NCBI GenBank assembly: GCA_019240115.1
Contig: JAFAYV010000074.1
Coordinates: 1-44,426 of the forward strand
From: Solirubrobacterales bacterium
GTDB taxonomy: Bacteria; Actinomycetota; Thermoleophilia; Solirubrobacterales; Solirubrobacteraceae
DNA length: 44,426 bases
Reading direction: 5' to 3'
Part shown: positions 5,788-27,334 of the stretch, one piece after another
Position numbering within the stretch: the first letter of the stretch is position 1
Layout: every line of letters starts with the position of its first letter
Made by a program: the position numbers and the translations under genes
The notes under the pieces: generated by a model
Database searches by the model: none
Seen by the model: the letters and a program-made list of their open reading frames with translations, nothing else
Told to the model about the DNA's origin: nothing

Positions 5788-6997
5788 GACCGCGCGCTGG
5801 GCACCGTCCTCGGTGCGGCCGGTGGGCCGCACGGTGCTGCCCGGGACGGCGATGATCGCGGTCAGCTTCGGGCTCGCCCGCTACGGCTACGGGCTGCTGT
5901 TGCCCGACATGCAGGCCGATCTGTCGATCAGCCCCGGCGCGGCGGGCTTGATCGCCTCGGGCACCTACGTGTCCTACCTGGTCGCCAACGTGGGCGTGGT
6001 CTGGCTGACCCGTCGGGGGGGACCACGAGCCGCGATCGCTCTGGCCACGCTGTTGGCGGCCGGCGGCATGATGGTGATCGCGGTCGCGGGGAGCGCGGCC
6101 GGGATGGCCGCCGGCGTGGTGACCGCGGGCGCCGCGGCGGGGCTGGTCTTTCCACCCTATGCCGACCTGGTCGCCTCCGACATCGACTCCCGGCGACGAG
6201 ACCTGGCGTGGTCGACGATCAGCTCGGGCACCGGCTGGGGTGTGGCCATCGCGGGACCGATCGCGATCATCGCCGGTGGTGACTGGCGTGTCGCCTGGAT
6301 GGTGTTCGTCGCCCTTGCCGCGAGTGCCGGCATCGTCGCGGTGCGGCTCGCCCCCGGGCGTCGCGCCAGCCAGCGCCTGCGACGCCCGCAGCTGAGCCCG
6401 TCCTGGTTCTTGTGTCCCAAGTCGCGGCCCTTGCTCATCTCCGCGCTGCTGATCGGGACCGGCAGCGCGGTGTGGTGGGCTTTCAGCGTCGACGCCCTGC
6501 GCCACGCGGGCCTTGGCGCGACGACCGCCAGCGTCGTCTACGCGGTGTGTGGTGCCGCAGGCATCCTCGCGTCGGTCAGCGGAGTCGCCTTCACCCGGCT
6601 CGGCCTGCGCCCCGGCTACCTCGCCGCGTGCATCCTGCTCGCCGCATCACTGGTGCTGCTGAGCATCACCGGGGGCCATGTGCTGACCGCCCTGCTGGCG
6701 GCGGTTCTGTTCGGCGTCTTCTATAACAGCGTCGTCGCCGCGCAGGGCATCTGGAGCTCGCGCGTCTTCGCCGATCACCCATCGGCCGGCCTCGCGGCCG
6801 TCAGCACCGCGCTGACGATCGGCACGCTTCTCGGACCGAGCATCGCCGGCACAGCCATCTCCCGCTTCGGGTTCCCGATGACGCTTCTCGCGGCGGCCGC
6901 CGTCATCCTCGCCGCGCTCGTGTTCTGCCCACCCGGCGCGCACCGCCGACAGCGCCTCGCCGCCCACCGATGCCGCGCCACGCCGGTCAGGACGTGA
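5780..6997 (+). CDS. MFS transporter (YbfB/YjiJ-like)
   Basis: A 405-residue integral membrane protein with about 12 hydrophobic segments. The opening FGLARYGYGLLLPDMQADL and the following IASGTYVSYLVAN segment are characteristic of the YbfB/YjiJ-type MFS subgroup. The start is placed at ATG 5780, which overlaps the stop of the upstream MarR gene; an earlier in-frame start at 5708 would add a non-hydrophobic stretch inside marR. The substrate is unknown. Translational coupling to a MarR regulator suggests inducible efflux of a small, possibly toxic, compound. It ends 30 nt before a convergent gene and no strong terminator was seen. Confidence 0.88.
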   Translation: MAETARWAPSSVRPVGRTVLPGTAMIAVSFGLARYGYGLLLPDMQADLSISPGAAGLIASGTYVSYLVANVGVVWLTRRGGPRAAIALATLLAAGGMMVIAVAGSAAGMAAGVVTAGAAAGLVFPPYADLVASDIDSRRRDLAWSTISSGTGWGVAIAGPIAIIAGGDWRVAWMVFVALAASAGIVAVRLAPGRRASQRLRRPQLSPSWFLCPKSRPLLISALLIGTGSAVWWAFSVDALRHAGLGATTASVVYAVCGAAGILASVSGVAFTRLGLRPGYLAACILLAASLVLLSITGGHVLTALLAAVLFGVFYNSVVAAQGIWSSRVFADHPSAGLAAVSTALTIGTLLGPSIAGTAISRFGFPMTLLAAAAVILAALVFCPPGAHRRQRLAAHRCRATPVRT

Positions 6998-7027
6998 CCG
7001 CGCCAGAGACACGGTCGATGGAGCGGC

Positions 7028-7390
7028 TCAGGACGCGTAGCGCCGGTGGAGCATCAGCGAGTTACCCTCGCTGTCGCGAAAGAACGCCATATTGCACACG
7101 CCGGTGTCGTGCTCGCCGGTGAACGTCACGCCGCGCTCCTCGAGCTCGCGCCGCGCCGCGGCGACGTCGCGCACGCGCAGCGCGATATGGGCGGTGTGCG
7201 GAGCGAACTCCATCCCCATGGCGGTCGGGTCGACGAGATACAGCGATATGTTGCCCGTCTCGATCTCGGGGAAGCCGGCCTCCCAGTTGGGGCTCTGCAT
7301 GCCGAGGGTGTCCCGGTAGAAGGCCCTGGCTCGCTCCATGTTCTGAACGGGGACCGAGACGAAGTCAGCGCGCTCGACGAGATTCTCCAT
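7028..7390 (-). CDS. VOC-family (glyoxalase/bleomycin-resistance fold) protein
   Basis: A 120-residue single-domain VOC protein: VPVQNMERARAFYRDTLGM opens the first beta-alpha-beta-beta-beta module, and HIALRVRDVAAARRELEERG opens the second, ending FFRDSEGNSLMLHRR. Candidate metal ligands are the His in AHIALRV and the Glu in SEGNSLML. Such proteins bind divalent metal and act as lyases, dioxygenases or drug binders; the reaction here cannot be assigned. The ATG at 7390 is preceded by CATACT and exactly 6 nt, with no Shine-Dalgarno, so it is probably translated from a leaderless mRNA. Upstream in-frame sequence is unlike the family. Confidence 0.85.
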   Translation of the reverse strand: MENLVERADFVSVPVQNMERARAFYRDTLGMQSPNWEAGFPEIETGNISLYLVDPTAMGMEFAPHTAHIALRVRDVAAARRELEERGVTFTGEHDTGVCNMAFFRDSEGNSLMLHRRYAS

Positions 7391-7396
7391 CGGAGA

Positions 7397-7402
7397 AGTA
7401 TG
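7397..7402 (-). promoter_or_regulatory. -10 element of a leaderless VOC transcript
   Basis: CATACT on the minus strand lies 6 nt before ATG 7390, placing the transcription start at or next to the start codon. No convincing -35 was seen. Confidence 0.5.
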
Positions 7403-7458
7403 ACCGGACGACTGATCAATCGCTCGGCCGGAGCAGAGCCTGTGTCCGGAAGGTCGGT

Positions 7459-8043
7459 TCACCGGGCAGGCCGGTCCAGGCGGCGTCTGCGGGTCTTGGC
7501 CAGATTGCCGCATCCGGCCATCGAGCACCAGCGGCGGCTCGCGTTCTTGCTCGTGTCCAGGACATACCAGCCGCAGTCCGGGTTGGCGCAGCGGTGGATC
7601 CGTGAGCTCATCGGGCCGCTGAGCAGGTCCAGCGCCGTGACGGCGACGGTGTGGCGCACCGTCGCCAGGTGCGAGGGATCCCATGACCAGCCGAGGACTC
7701 CATCCGCCGCCGGGACGAGGCGGCCGTTGGCGTAGGCGTTCGCGGCGGCGTCGGCGAGCGCGTCGGTGTCACGGAGGGCGAGGGGCCGGTCCTCGGTCAG
7801 GGCAGCGAGGAGCTCGAGCAGGTGAGCCCGGAGCGCGAGCGCCCTGGCGAGCTCCTGCGGCGCGGCGGTGGCGGTGTCGTCGAGAGCCGCGACGCGGACG
7901 CCCCAACGTCGGAGGTCGTCGGTGCTGCGCAGAGTGTCCTCGGGATGGTCGCCGGTGCGGTCCTCGATGGTGTTGGCGAAGTCCAGCGCGAGATGGCCGC
8001 CGAGCAGCGAGATCGTGGCGACGTCAGCGCGCCCACCAGTCAA
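7459..8043 (-). CDS. CGNR zinc-finger protein with ABATE domain (putative regulator)
   Basis: A 194-residue protein. The N-terminal ABATE-type domain begins with LLGGHLALDFANTIEDR. The C-terminal CGNR zinc finger reads RCANPDCGWYVLDTSKN, then RWCSMAGCGNLAKTRR, giving the four cysteine ligands and the basic tail. Such proteins are abundant in actinomycetes and are presumed DNA-binding regulators. The predicted start is TTG at 8043; no ATG or GTG fits upstream of the conserved GGHLALDFANT. It is divergent from an EamA exporter only 39 nt away, with a short palindrome between, so it probably controls that exporter and itself. Confidence 0.85.
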   Translation of the reverse strand: MTGGRADVATISLLGGHLALDFANTIEDRTGDHPEDTLRSTDDLRRWGVRVAALDDTATAAPQELARALALRAHLLELLAALTEDRPLALRDTDALADAAANAYANGRLVPAADGVLGWSWDPSHLATVRHTVAVTALDLLSGPMSSRIHRCANPDCGWYVLDTSKNASRRWCSMAGCGNLAKTRRRRLDRPAR

Positions 8044-22323: not shown

Positions 22324-23505
22324 ATGTCCGGCCCGACGATCATCCACGCCGACCTCGACGCCTTCTATGCGTCGGTCGAGCAGCGCGACGATCCGTCGCT
22401 GCGCGGGCGCCCGGTCATCGTCGGCGGCGGTGTCGTGCTCGCCGCCAGCTACGAGGCCAAGGCGGCGGGGGTCCGCACCGCGATGGGAGGCCGGCGGGCC
22501 CGCGCGCTGTGTCCGCAGGCGGCCATCGTCGCCCCGCGGTTCGCGGCCTACGCGCAGGCGAGCCGCGCCGTGTTTGCGATCTTCGAGCGCCTGGCGCCGG
22601 TCGTCGAGGCGCTCTCGATCGACGAGGCGTTCCTCGACGTCCGCGGCCTGGCCCACATCACCGGCACCCCGGTGCAGATCGCCCGGCGGCTGCGCGCCGA
22701 GGTCCGCGAGGAGGTCGGGCTCGCGATCACCGTCGGGCTCGCGTCGACGAAGTTCCTGGCCAAGGTGGCCAGTGGGGTGGCCAAGCCCGACGGGCTGCTC
22801 GTCATTCCCCCGGGGGCGGAGCTGACCTTCCTGCATCCGCTGCCGGTGACGCGGCTGTGGGGCGTCGGGGCGGTGACCGCCGAGCGGCTGCGCGCCGCGG
22901 GCCTGAGCACCGTGGGACAGGTGGCCCGCCTCGACGAGCGCGTGCTGACCGATCTCATCGGCCGCGCGTCGGGGCGCAAGCTGCACGCGCTCGCGCGCAA
23001 CCGCGACCCTCGCCGCGTCCGCCGCCGCCCGCGGCGCCGCTCGATCGGCGCTCAGCGCGCCCTCGGCCGTGGGCCCCACACGCCGCGCGCGCTGCAGTCG
23101 GCCCTGATGACGCTCGTCGACCGCGTCGCGCGGCGGATGCGCGCCGCTCATCGCGCCTGCCGGACCGTCGTGCTGCGCCTGCGCTTCGCCGACTACGCGC
23201 GCGCGACCCGCTCGCACACGATCGCCGAGGCGACCGCGCGGACCGCGACCCTGCTGGCGGTCGCTCGCGGCCTGCTGCGGGACGCGGGCGAGCTGATCGC
23301 GCGCCGCGGCCTGACGCTGATCGGCATCTCGCTGACCAACCTGTGCGATCGCGACGCGATCCAGCTCGCGCTGCCCTTCGACCGGGCCTCGGGCCTGGAC
23401 TCCGCGCTCGACGAGCTGCGCGACCGCTTCGGCACGGGCGCGATCACCCGCGGGGCGCACGTCGGCCGCGAGCCCGAGGACTGGGTCCCGCTCCTGCCCG
23501 ATTGA
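22324..23505 (+). CDS. dinB: DNA polymerase IV (Y-family translesion polymerase)
   Basis: A 393-residue Y-family polymerase. Palm motifs: IIHADLDAFYASVE, with the first catalytic Asp pair, and ALSIDEAFLD, with the second acidic pair. ASYEAKAAGVRTAMG is the fingers segment; STKFLAKVAS and the helix-hairpin-helix-like LWGVGAVTAERLRAAG lie in the thumb, followed by the little finger. The end IQLALPFD is like a beta-clamp binding motif (Q-L-x-L-P-F). It copies past lesions in DNA at the cost of fidelity. The ATG is chosen for the family start and lies directly after a perfect LexA box, so expression should be SOS-induced. Confidence 0.95.
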   Translation: MSGPTIIHADLDAFYASVEQRDDPSLRGRPVIVGGGVVLAASYEAKAAGVRTAMGGRRARALCPQAAIVAPRFAAYAQASRAVFAIFERLAPVVEALSIDEAFLDVRGLAHITGTPVQIARRLRAEVREEVGLAITVGLASTKFLAKVASGVAKPDGLLVIPPGAELTFLHPLPVTRLWGVGAVTAERLRAAGLSTVGQVARLDERVLTDLIGRASGRKLHALARNRDPRRVRRRPRRRSIGAQRALGRGPHTPRALQSALMTLVDRVARRMRAAHRACRTVVLRLRFADYARATRSHTIAEATARTATLLAVARGLLRDAGELIARRGLTLIGISLTNLCDRDAIQLALPFDRASGLDSALDELRDRFGTGAITRGAHVGREPEDWVPLLPD

Positions 23506-23526: not shown

Positions 23527-23635
23527 CCCGCGTCGCGCGCCGTCGAGGATCTCGCGGCCGGGCGCCGTGCCGGCAGCTCGGCGCGACCGTCCAGGGTCGA
23601 GGTCCTCCGGTTCAAGGAAAGCAGCCACCGGACCG

Positions 23636-26600
23636 ATGCAACTCGCGTCATTTTCGACCGGGGAAAACGTGCCCACTCTTAACACCACCCCCGCGGACGG
23701 CGTCACCGTCGCCGCTCGCTCATCAGCTGCGGACGCGGCCTCCTCGAGGCACCCGCGCGCGCTCGGATGGCTGGGGACGACGGCGCTGGCCATGGGCGGC
23801 TCCAACCAGAGCCTGTTCGTCGTCGGCGCGCTGATCGCCACCCAGGGCACCGGCGCGGTGCCGCTGCTCATCGTCGGGCTGCTGCTCGCGTGGGCGGCGG
23901 CGCCCGGGTGGACCGAGCTGATCCTCATGTGGCCCAACCGGGTCGGGGGCATCGCCGCGAGCTGCGCCGAGGCGTTTCGCCCCTACAGCCCGGTGCTCGC
24001 CAACCTCACCGGCGTCTGCTACTGGTGGGGCTGGGTCCCGACCTGTGGGCTGACCGCGATCCTCTCGTCGACCGCGCTGCACGACTGGTACCTGCCGGGC
24101 GTGCCGGTTGCGCTGCTGGCCACCGTGCTCGTGTCGCTGTTCTGCGCGCTGAACCTGTGCGGGATCAAATGGGTCGTGCGGCTCGCGATCCCGGTCGCGT
24201 GCTGCTCGGCGACGCTCGCGCTGCTGTCGGTGCTCGTCCCGCTCATCGCCGGGCACGTCGACTGGCATCGCGCCGCCTCGTGGTCACTGAAGCTGCCGTT
24301 CCACGGAACCTTCGGATGGGTGACGAGCGCGATGGCCGGCCTGTACCTCGTCGGATTCGCCGCGCCCGCGTTCGAGGCGGCCGCCTGCCACGTCGGCGAG
24401 ACCCGCGACCCCGGCCGCAACGTCAAGCGCGCGATGTTCGCCTCGGCGGGCATGTCCTCGATCTATTTCATCGTCATCCCGGTCGTGTGGCTCGGGGTGA
24501 TCGGCGGCGCCGGCCTCGGCGGCAAGCTGACGACGACCCTCGGGCCGACCTACGCACCGCTCCTCGGCGGGGCCGCCAAGGCCGCCGCCGTGTGGTTCAT
24601 GGTCATGAACATGTTCCACGGCACGATGCAGCCGCTCGCCGGCCCCGCGCGCGCTCTCTCCCAGCTGTCCGAGGACGGGCTGCTGCCGCGGGTGCTCAGC
24701 CGCCGCAACCGCAACGACGTGCCGTGGGTGGCGACCGTCCTGACCGCCGCGGTGTCGATCGTCTTCCTGCAGTCGGGCGACCCGCCGTGGGTCATCGCCG
24801 CCGCCAACCTCACCTACCTGATCGCGATCGGGCTGCCGAGCGTCGCCGTCTACCTGCTGCGCCGCAACGCGCCCGACCGGCCTCGCCTCTATCGCGCCCC
24901 CCGCGGCACGATCGTGCTCGGCCTGGGCGCGGCGGGCGCGTGGGGCGTGGCCACCGCGCTCGGGTTCGAGCAGTTCGGGCTGCCGACGGTCCTCGCTGGG
25001 CTCGCGCTCGCCTACGCCGGCTCGACCCTGTACGCCTGGCGCGCATGGCGCGACCGCCGCGCATCCGGGGCGCCCCGGATCGAGCGCTCGCTGCACTTCA
25101 AGCTGACCGGAGCGATGCTCGCGGTCATGGTGCTCGACGGCGTCGGCTACCTGCTCGCGGTCAGCCACGTGTCGAGGACCGATCCGGCGCTGACGACGCT
25201 GCTCGCCGACATCTTCGTCGCCGTCGCGGTCCTGACCATCGTCGTCGGGCTCGTCCTGCCGGGGATGATCGCCCACGCCAGCCGCGAGGTCTCCTCCACC
25301 GTGACCTCGCTCGCCCGCGGCACCGTCGCCGACCTCACCCGGGCGATGGAGGCGCTGAGCTGCGGCAACCTCGACGCCGCTCACGCCCGCATCGACGATC
25401 ATCCGCTGCCGGTGCGCAGCCGCGACGAGGTCGGCCGGATCGCCGAGACCGTGCAGCTGATGCAGAAGGAGATCGCGCGCGCGGTGGCGGCGCTCGACGG
25501 CGCCCGCGAGGGCCTGCGCCGCTCCGAGGCGCGGCTCGAGCGCAACCTGCGCCAGCAGTCGGCGCTCGCCGAGCTCGGCGCTCGGGCGCTCGAGAGCTTG
25601 TCGATCGACACCGTGCTCAAGCAGGCGGTCAGCGCGGTGCACCGCGTGATCGAGGTCGAGGTCGCCGGCATCTTCCAGCGCGAGCCCGAGCGGCCGGTGT
25701 TCCGCCTCCGGGTCCAACAGGGGATGGGACCCGAGTTCGACGGCGCGATTGCGGCCGACAGCGACGCGCTCGAGCGCGCGCTCGACGCGCGCGCGCCGCT
25801 GGCCAGCATCGTCAACCGCCCACTGCTGCCGCGGCGGCTCGATCGCCACCCCCGCAGCCGGCTGATCATGCCGATCCGGGCCGGCGACCGCCCCTGGGGG
25901 GTGATCTCGATGCGCGCGAGGTCCTCGCGCGAGTTCGCCCAGGACGAGCGCGACTTCCTGCACAACGTCGCCAACATCCTGTCGGAGTCGATCCAGCGGA
26001 TCGGCAGCGTCGAGGAGATCCGCTATCAGGCGCTCCATGATCCGCTGACCGGCCTGCCCAACCGGTCGCTGTTCGTCGATCATCTCACGCTCGCAATCGG
26101 CGACACGGCGCGCCACCCGCGCTCGCTCGCGGTGCTCTTTCTCGACGTCGACAACTTCAAGCTGATCAACGACAGCCTCGGGCACAGCATCGGCGACGAC
26201 GTGCTGCGCCAGATCGCGCGGCGGATCGACGGCTGCCTGCGCCCCGGGGACACAGTGGCGCGCTTCGGCGGCGACGAGTTCGTGGTCCTCTGCACCGATC
26301 TGGACTCGCCGGCGGCCGCCGACACGATCGCCGGCCGGCTCGCCGACGCGCTCAGTGAGCCCTTCCGGGTCGGCGACGCCGAGCACCGCGTGGCGGCGAG
26401 CATCGGGATCGCGACGGCGACCGGACCCGAGCGCATCGCCGAGGATCTCATCCGCGAGGCCGACGCGGCGATGTACCAGGCCAAGGCGCGCGGGCGCAAC
26501 CGCCACGAGACCTACGACGCGACGATGCGCGCGAAGGCGAGCAGCCGCCTGCAGATCGCCTCCGACCTCGTCCAGGCGCTCGCCCGCGACGAGCTGCGCG

Positions 26601-27334
26601 TCGAGTATCAGCCGATCGTCGCGCTCGACACCGCGGTCATGCTCGGCACCGAGGCGCTCGTGCGCTGGCGCCATCCGACCCGCGGCGAGATCGGCCCGGC
26701 CGAGTTCATCCCGATCGCCGAGGACACCGGAACGATCGTCGCCATCGGCGAGTTCGTCCTGCGCCACGCCTGCGAGTCCTCGGTCGCCTGGAGCGCCGCG
26801 CATCCCGAGCTCCCGGGGCTGCCGGTCTCGGTCAACGTGTCTCTGCGCCAGGTGCGCCATCCAGGCCTGCCCGAGCTCGTCGCCGACGTGCTCGCGAGCA
26901 CCGGACTCGAGCCCGAGCGGCTGCACCTCGAGATCACCGAGTCGGTGCTCATGGAGGAGACCGAAACCTCGATGCACTGCCTGCACGCGCTCAAGGACCT
27001 CGGCATCACCCTCGTGCTCGACGACTTCGGCACCGGCTACTCGTCGCTGGCCTACGTCCGTCGCTTCCCGATCGACGTGATCAAGATCGACCGCAGCTTC
27101 GTCGCCGACCTCGAGTCCGACGGCGAGGGCGTGACGATCATCCAGGCGATCCTCAACATGGCCCGCGGCCTGCGCCTCGACGTCATCGCCGAGGGCGTCG
27201 AGAACGCCGCCCAGGCCGAGTTGCTACAGGACCTCGGCTGCCGCATGGCCCAGGGGTGGCACTACGCCGCGGGCATGGACGGCGCCGCGGTGCAGGAGCT
27301 CCAGGGACGGGCGCTCGTCTCGGTCGCGGCGTAA
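23636..27334 (+). CDS. APC-type permease fused to HAMP-GAF-GGDEF-EAL (cyclic-di-GMP transceptor)
   Basis: A single frame of about 1,232 residues. Residues ~41-480 form an APC-superfamily amino-acid permease (about 12 helices; WPNRVGGIAASCAEAF, FAAPAFEAAACHVGETRDP, MNMFHGTMQPLAGPARALSQ). Two further helices (~485-560) lead to a HAMP-like segment ending RSRDEVGRIAETVQLMQKEI, a coiled coil, a GAF domain (~635-790), GGDEF (~796-960) and EAL (~965-1220). GGDEF 878-882 is intact, with inhibitory site RPGD at 869-872. EAL 1006-1008, NVS, EITES, DDFGTGYSS (1129 on), VIKIDRSF and AEGVEN are all present, so both cyclase and phosphodiesterase look active. GTG at 23669 is an alternative start. Predicted role: a membrane transporter or receptor for an amine or amino acid that tunes cyclic-di-GMP. 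Confidence 0.93.
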   Translation: MQLASFSTGENVPTLNTTPADGVTVAARSSAADAASSRHPRALGWLGTTALAMGGSNQSLFVVGALIATQGTGAVPLLIVGLLLAWAAAPGWTELILMWPNRVGGIAASCAEAFRPYSPVLANLTGVCYWWGWVPTCGLTAILSSTALHDWYLPGVPVALLATVLVSLFCALNLCGIKWVVRLAIPVACCSATLALLSVLVPLIAGHVDWHRAASWSLKLPFHGTFGWVTSAMAGLYLVGFAAPAFEAAACHVGETRDPGRNVKRAMFASAGMSSIYFIVIPVVWLGVIGGAGLGGKLTTTLGPTYAPLLGGAAKAAAVWFMVMNMFHGTMQPLAGPARALSQLSEDGLLPRVLSRRNRNDVPWVATVLTAAVSIVFLQSGDPPWVIAAANLTYLIAIGLPSVAVYLLRRNAPDRPRLYRAPRGTIVLGLGAAGAWGVATALGFEQFGLPTVLAGLALAYAGSTLYAWRAWRDRRASGAPRIERSLHFKLTGAMLAVMVLDGVGYLLAVSHVSRTDPALTTLLADIFVAVAVLTIVVGLVLPGMIAHASREVSSTVTSLARGTVADLTRAMEALSCGNLDAAHARIDDHPLPVRSRDEVGRIAETVQLMQKEIARAVAALDGAREGLRRSEARLERNLRQQSALAELGARALESLSIDTVLKQAVSAVHRVIEVEVAGIFQREPERPVFRLRVQQGMGPEFDGAIAADSDALERALDARAPLASIVNRPLLPRRLDRHPRSRLIMPIRAGDRPWGVISMRARSSREFAQDERDFLHNVANILSESIQRIGSVEEIRYQALHDPLTGLPNRSLFVDHLTLAIGDTARHPRSLAVLFLDVDNFKLINDSLGHSIGDDVLRQIARRIDGCLRPGDTVARFGGDEFVVLCTDLDSPAAADTIAGRLADALSEPFRVGDAEHRVAASIGIATATGPERIAEDLIREADAAMYQAKARGRNRHETYDATMRAKASSRLQIASDLVQALARDELRVEYQPIVALDTAVMLGTEALVRWRHPTRGEIGPAEFIPIAEDTGTIVAIGEFVLRHACESSVAWSAAHPELPGLPVSVNVSLRQVRHPGLPELVADVLASTGLEPERLHLEITESVLMEETETSMHCLHALKDLGITLVLDDFGTGYSSLAYVRRFPIDVIKIDRSFVADLESDGEGVTIIQAILNMARGLRLDVIAEGVENAAQAELLQDLGCRMAQGWHYAAGMDGAAVQELQGRALVSVAA

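Follow-up and report, generated by a model that had tools for sequence, protein, structure and literature searches.

Domain architecture of the window protein

The window analysed here is a 44,426-nucleotide stretch, contig JAFAYV010000074.1 of the Solirubrobacterales bacterium assembly GCA_019240115.1, and its gene of interest encodes an APC-type permease joined to cyclic-di-GMP (c-di-GMP) signaling domains. The frame is free of stop codons from 23567 to 27334 on the plus strand, and one open reading frame (ORF) spans permease through EAL, as the initial annotation had described. The gene contains the following features (TM, transmembrane helix):

23636-27334, plus strand: whole gene, one ORF for APC-fold permease, TM13-14, HAMP, GAF, GGDEF and EAL; alternative start GTG 23669
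23750-25078, plus strand: APC/LeuT-fold permease of 12 TM, with TM1 and TM6 broken (AA_permease, AA_permease_2, AlphaFold, VIA-align)
25091-25270, plus strand: hairpin from permease to HAMP, TM13 (25091-25165) and TM14 (25184-25270) (AlphaFold; conserved in 81 rows)
25328-25474, plus strand: HAMP (22.0 bits here, 28-34 bits in the six relatives scanned)
25601-25999, plus strand: GAF (GAF_3, E 3.8e-11)
26030-26503, plus strand: GGDEF (E 8.3e-49), with the RPGD inhibitory site (I-site) at 26240-26251 and the GGDEF motif at 26267-26281
26564-27268, plus strand: EAL phosphodiesterase (E 3.2e-71), catalytic signatures intact, aligned to 5m3c and 4rnh

Domains were called by a Pfam scan of the window protein at family cut-offs, with absent profiles checked up to E 0.1. 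AA_permease (53 bits; cut-off 24.6), GAF, GGDEF and EAL all scored above their cut-offs, and AA_permease_2 matched at the same place with 114 bits (cut-off 27) in the scan of the organism's own genome. Within the E 0.1 limit, no match to the SSF (SLC5), STAC or Ammonium_transp profiles was found in the window protein. The output half was annotated as having its signature residues intact, and this was borne out: numbering residues from 23567, the RxxD I-site is present as RPGD (892-895), GGDEF follows at 901, and every EAL catalytic signature is in place (E1029, N1090, E1122, D1152, D1153, K1173, E1209 and Q1229). This half aligns nearly end to end with two solved GGDEF-EAL proteins, MorA (4rnh, "motility regulator") and 5m3c, its closest solved relatives; unlike the window protein, both solved chains lack a permease-type input. 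In the window's own genome, about 25 GGDEF domains exceed the cut-off and there is no PilZ match.

An AlphaFold model built with 81 family rows (pLDDT 86, pTM 0.83) contains 12 permease helices, of which TM1 is broken at residues 19-20 and TM6 at 202-204. TM13 (448-472) follows, and then TM14, which runs without a break into the first HAMP helix (479-537), with HAMP helix 2 after it. When residues 1-444 were compared with known structures using VIA-align, y+LAT1, LAT1, AdiC and other APC transporters were matched at Z 30-39, the best being y+LAT1 (Z 38.8, rmsd 3.5, 426 residues aligned), and a Foldseek search of the model also returned APC transporters. The window permease shares its fold with y+LAT1, AdiC, LAT1 and GkApcT over all 12 helices. 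The predictions of a full-length APC-type permease of about 12 helices, and of two extra helices with a HAMP-like linker, thus agree with the Pfam match, the model and its fold matches. Unlike the window protein, APC transporters and the trimethylamine N-oxide (TMAO) permease family NF053774 are stand-alone carriers without TM13-14, HAMP or an output. If the N-terminus lies in the cytoplasm, as it does in other APC proteins, the even helix count would place HAMP on the cytoplasmic side.

The input module is shared across phyla

To find relatives, an alignment of the permease, the two extra helices and HAMP (profile A1, 578 residues) was scanned against one genome per species from 84,980 species. 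Relatives are encoded in 121 stretches, the best 80 of which match the 578-residue profile essentially end to end. These 80 loci fall in eight phyla (Actinomycetota, Verrucomicrobiota, Pseudomonadota, Myxococcota, Dormiibacterota, Armatimonadota, Chloroflexota and Omnitrophota), with module identities to the window of 56-69% across phyla, and the pseudomonadotal carriers include the methylotrophs Methylocapsa, Methylotenera, Methyloceanibacter and Hansschlegelia. Because the loci were found through patterns inside the permease, none of them in the output, unfused copies were findable; every one of the 74 complete-frame loci among the best 80 of 121 is fused to a signaling output. Four of the 80 run off their contigs, two of these showing the start of HisKA or GGDEF, and two (L073 and L096) are interrupted by frameshifts, with PAS or kinase sequence going on in another frame.

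Closer to the window, the distribution is patchy. A permease-signaling fusion was found in 7 of 232 genomes in the order sample, whereas in the phylum sample the module was present in 1 of 396, the window's own genome only. The permease part is 62-71% identical in six further genomes of the same family, where it is joined to GGDEF-EAL in four and a histidine kinase in one, while the sixth runs off its contig. One carrier, Paraconexibacter antarcticus, has a genome consisting of a single 5.1-Mb contig. Since the window comes from a 99-contig draft genome, an assembly error or a recent accidental fusion was considered. This explanation is ruled out because the fusion recurs in many phyla and in independent genomes, that of P. 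antarcticus among them, and the conservation in other genomes of the order indicates that the fusion is genuine.

Two module copies stand out. One, 61% identical, lies on the 1.09-Mb Paraburkholderia sp. PREW-6R plasmid NZ_CP155075.1 (positions 6001-7746 of locus L119), and the plasmid is a possible route of module transfer. The other (G315:C1:368497-370255) is split by a frameshift and contains one in-frame TGA, and may be either a decaying gene or a sequencing error.

Outputs have been exchanged repeatedly

Across 75 sequences, including the window, the outputs contain HATPase_c in 49 and GGDEF in 26, along with EAL (24), HD domains (2), receivers (28) and Hpt (3). The initial annotation presented the protein as a GGDEF-EAL oddity, but histidine kinases make up the majority of its relatives, and several of these lie beside a response regulator. 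On the module tree (a quick tree with some long branches), the state changes between histidine kinase and GGDEF-EAL at least eight times. Some versions carry GAF or PAS between HAMP and the output, and in many members HisKA or GGDEF comes directly after HAMP, leaving no room for either. Judged from these comparisons, the permease, TM13-14 and HAMP (∼600 amino acids) form a conserved, interchangeable input module.

The same module sits on a hybrid histidine kinase (HisKA-HATPase-REC) in a genome of the window's own genus (G075), where a REC-HD-GYP gene begins alongside it in the opposite direction. Other kinase versions adjoin genes for REC-HD-GYP, REC-EAL, OmpR-type or hybrid-kinase regulators. 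Given the GGDEF-type outputs together with the REC-HD-GYP and REC-EAL neighbors of kinase versions, c-di-GMP is a recurring, though not invariable, end point of the family, in cis or in trans. At a related locus (L028 3222-7355, minus strand), residues 1-150 of the predicted protein P0004, upstream of the permease start, contain the C-terminal end of an HD-GYP-type domain (PF13487), possibly left over from a REC-HD-GYP gene such as the one beside the G075 homologue. The H-[ED]-[LIM]-RTPL box is absent from the kinase outputs of L034, L041, L049-L053, L073 and related Verrucomicrobiota loci; at this position L073 reads VLHNVGNVLNS, a different H-box type.

These outputs bear on the direction of signaling. 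In one alternative, the protein would be a working transporter regulated from inside, c-di-GMP or a GAF ligand gating uptake, so that the permease is itself the output. The permease is complete with a conserved core, as expected of a working carrier, and the fold matches include KimA, an APC-fold transporter whose structure was solved with c-di-AMP bound. However, histidine kinases, receivers and Hpt domains, and kinase versions beside response regulators, imply outward signaling to other proteins, and the order TM-HAMP-coil-effector is the usual sensor-to-output layout; we therefore consider regulated uptake unlikely.

Conservation of the permease core and clues to a ligand

In LeuT-fold transporters, the substrate site is lined by TM1, 3, 6, 8 and 10. 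Column entropy in the family was lowest in intracellular loop 1, TM6, TM3, TM10, TM1 and TM8 (0.50-0.77 bits), with TM4, 5, 7, 9, 11 and 12 (1.1-1.6 bits) being ∼2-3 times as variable as the most conserved helices, and TM13-14 intermediate (∼0.9 bits). Because conservation peaks in the helices that line the substrate site of this fold, ligand binding has probably been retained.

The best NCBIfam match of the window permease domain was the TMAO permease NF053774 (126 bits; next 60), a score well under the curated cut-off of 690 bits. The nearest stand-alone relative recovered, L117, scored 137 bits by the family profile, where family members whose module is unbroken exceed 840, and is itself a TMAO permease by the NCBIfam cut-off (803 vs 690 bits). 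The GxG substrate motif of TM1 was compared by alignment, and the TM1 sequence GGSNQS is peculiar to the new family. The TMAO-permease relative and the methylotroph members are a lead, no more, toward methylated amines. The initial annotation suggested that an amino acid or amine is sensed or co-transported; a methylated amine or a small zwitterion is a possible ligand. Inferring the ligand from conserved neighboring genes was also attempted and rejected, as clustering of the flanking ORFs showed no catabolic genes. Besides response regulators and hybrid kinases, the clusters comprised small groups whose distance and strand vary; by eye, these included an ABC-type ATPase (7 loci) and a dehydrogenase-like frame (5 loci). 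Stand-alone APC permeases were also seen in relatives of the window's organism (L014, L016 and L019), each with a divergent neighbor whose protein starts ME-LDTFLAR-PPFD and by eye resembles a cyclic-nucleotide-binding regulator.

Proposed signaling mechanism

The window protein is probably a transceptor, or a transporter-derived receptor, that arose from an APC-family transporter. A receptor role had been proposed from the fusion itself, and it now has strong support, since the input module is conserved throughout and its output has been exchanged repeatedly: a constant module next to exchangeable outputs points to a sensor, and the high conservation of the core helices argues for a working binding site rather than an anchor. 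In the proposed mechanism, an extracellular small ligand would bind the central site formed by TM1/3/6/8/10, and the resulting conformational (alternating-access) change of the permease would move TM13-14. TM14, which leads straight into the first HAMP helix, would relay this change through the coil and GAF to a dimeric GGDEF-EAL unit, shifting the balance between c-di-GMP synthesis, limited by I-site feedback, and breakdown. The permease might also transport the ligand.

Several observations weigh against this interpretation. The window HAMP, at 22.0 bits, falls under the 25-bit Pfam cut-off, which all six relatives scanned exceed. The 41 weaker relatives among the 121 were left out of the fusion count, and unfused members are possible there. 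No conserved metabolic or amine-catabolic neighbor was found among the clustered flanking ORFs. Finally, the GAF domain between HAMP and GGDEF could be the main regulator, and coupling of permease to output cannot be assumed because the kinase of CbrA, an SLC5-STAC protein, can work without its transporter domain (PMC7096432). The last two points are also what would be expected if the fusion lacked functional coupling, the permease only anchoring and dimerizing a c-di-GMP enzyme under GAF control, and the presence of GAF or PAS in some versions fits such an arrangement. Yet an anchor needs no conserved substrate site, while here conservation across phyla is highest in the core helices of the module, and the many members with HisKA or GGDEF right after HAMP have no space for an intervening regulator. 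An uncoupled anchor is thus improbable, and the transceptor reading is retained.

Relation to known transporter-like receptors

Fusions of a transporter fold to an output are already known, as are APC-type receptors in yeast. The SLC5-STAC kinases CbrA, CrbS and RpuS likewise join a transporter domain to an output, and CbrA both binds and transports its ligand, L-histidine (PMC13022988, PMC7096432, PMC9100948). CbrA-type proteins combine an SLC5/SSS domain, a STAC linker and a histidine kinase, whereas in the window family an APC permease is linked through TM13-14 and HAMP to its outputs, GGDEF-EAL and GGDEF-HD-GYP among them. The ammonium sensor histidine kinase Ks-Amt5 similarly senses through a transporter fold that shares a single polypeptide with its output; unlike the window protein, it has an Amt/Rh fold and a histidine kinase output and is described as lacking HAMP (PMC5764959). 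Yeast Ssy1 and Gap1 are likewise an APC-type amino-acid receptor or transceptor (PMC12958826, PMC3166329), but they are eukaryotic and act with separate partner proteins instead of a fused enzyme.

A search of the full-text literature, open-access only and hence weak evidence, found no APC-HAMP-output protein with either GGDEF-EAL or a histidine kinase, although SLC5-STAC, Amt and S-component cases did turn up. Permeases go unmentioned in a survey of alphaproteobacterial c-di-GMP genes. Reported transceptors were described in 2024 as extremely few and confined to eukaryotes (PMC11109136), and a 2026 preprint called CbrA a rare example (PMC13022988). The family is widespread and apparently undescribed. 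A broader proposal is more tentative, and we hold it as a possibility short of an even chance: that these proteins are an undescribed, horizontally spread bacterial family of APC-fold transceptors, in which a fixed 600-residue module probably senses one conserved extracellular small molecule (perhaps a TMAO-like methylated amine or zwitterion) and swappable outputs place c-di-GMP or two-component systems under its control. In this bacterial family of at least eight phyla, the sensor appears to be an APC transporter fold and the output has been exchanged many times, providing naturally occurring variants with which to study how alternating-access movement turns into a signal. A direct route from nutrient to c-di-GMP is possible, and P. 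antarcticus, a named strain whose genome is complete, carries a relative that makes the system testable.

Genomic context and start codon

Upstream, the neighbor is a DinB-type polymerase ending at 23505, and downstream lies a convergent PfkB-type kinase gene (28157 to 27357), a context that fits the suggestion that the window gene is self-contained. A c-di-GMP riboswitch or other known RNA upstream was considered and rejected, as Rfam gave no match in the window or just upstream of the gene. Two start codons are candidates, ATG 23636, chosen in the initial annotation, and GTG 23669, and the first residue conserved in the family is encoded at 23750. GTG 23669 is preceded by GGGGAAAAC, in which a purine-rich stretch is better placed than for ATG 23636, and it gives an N-terminus nearer the short one seen in most relatives.
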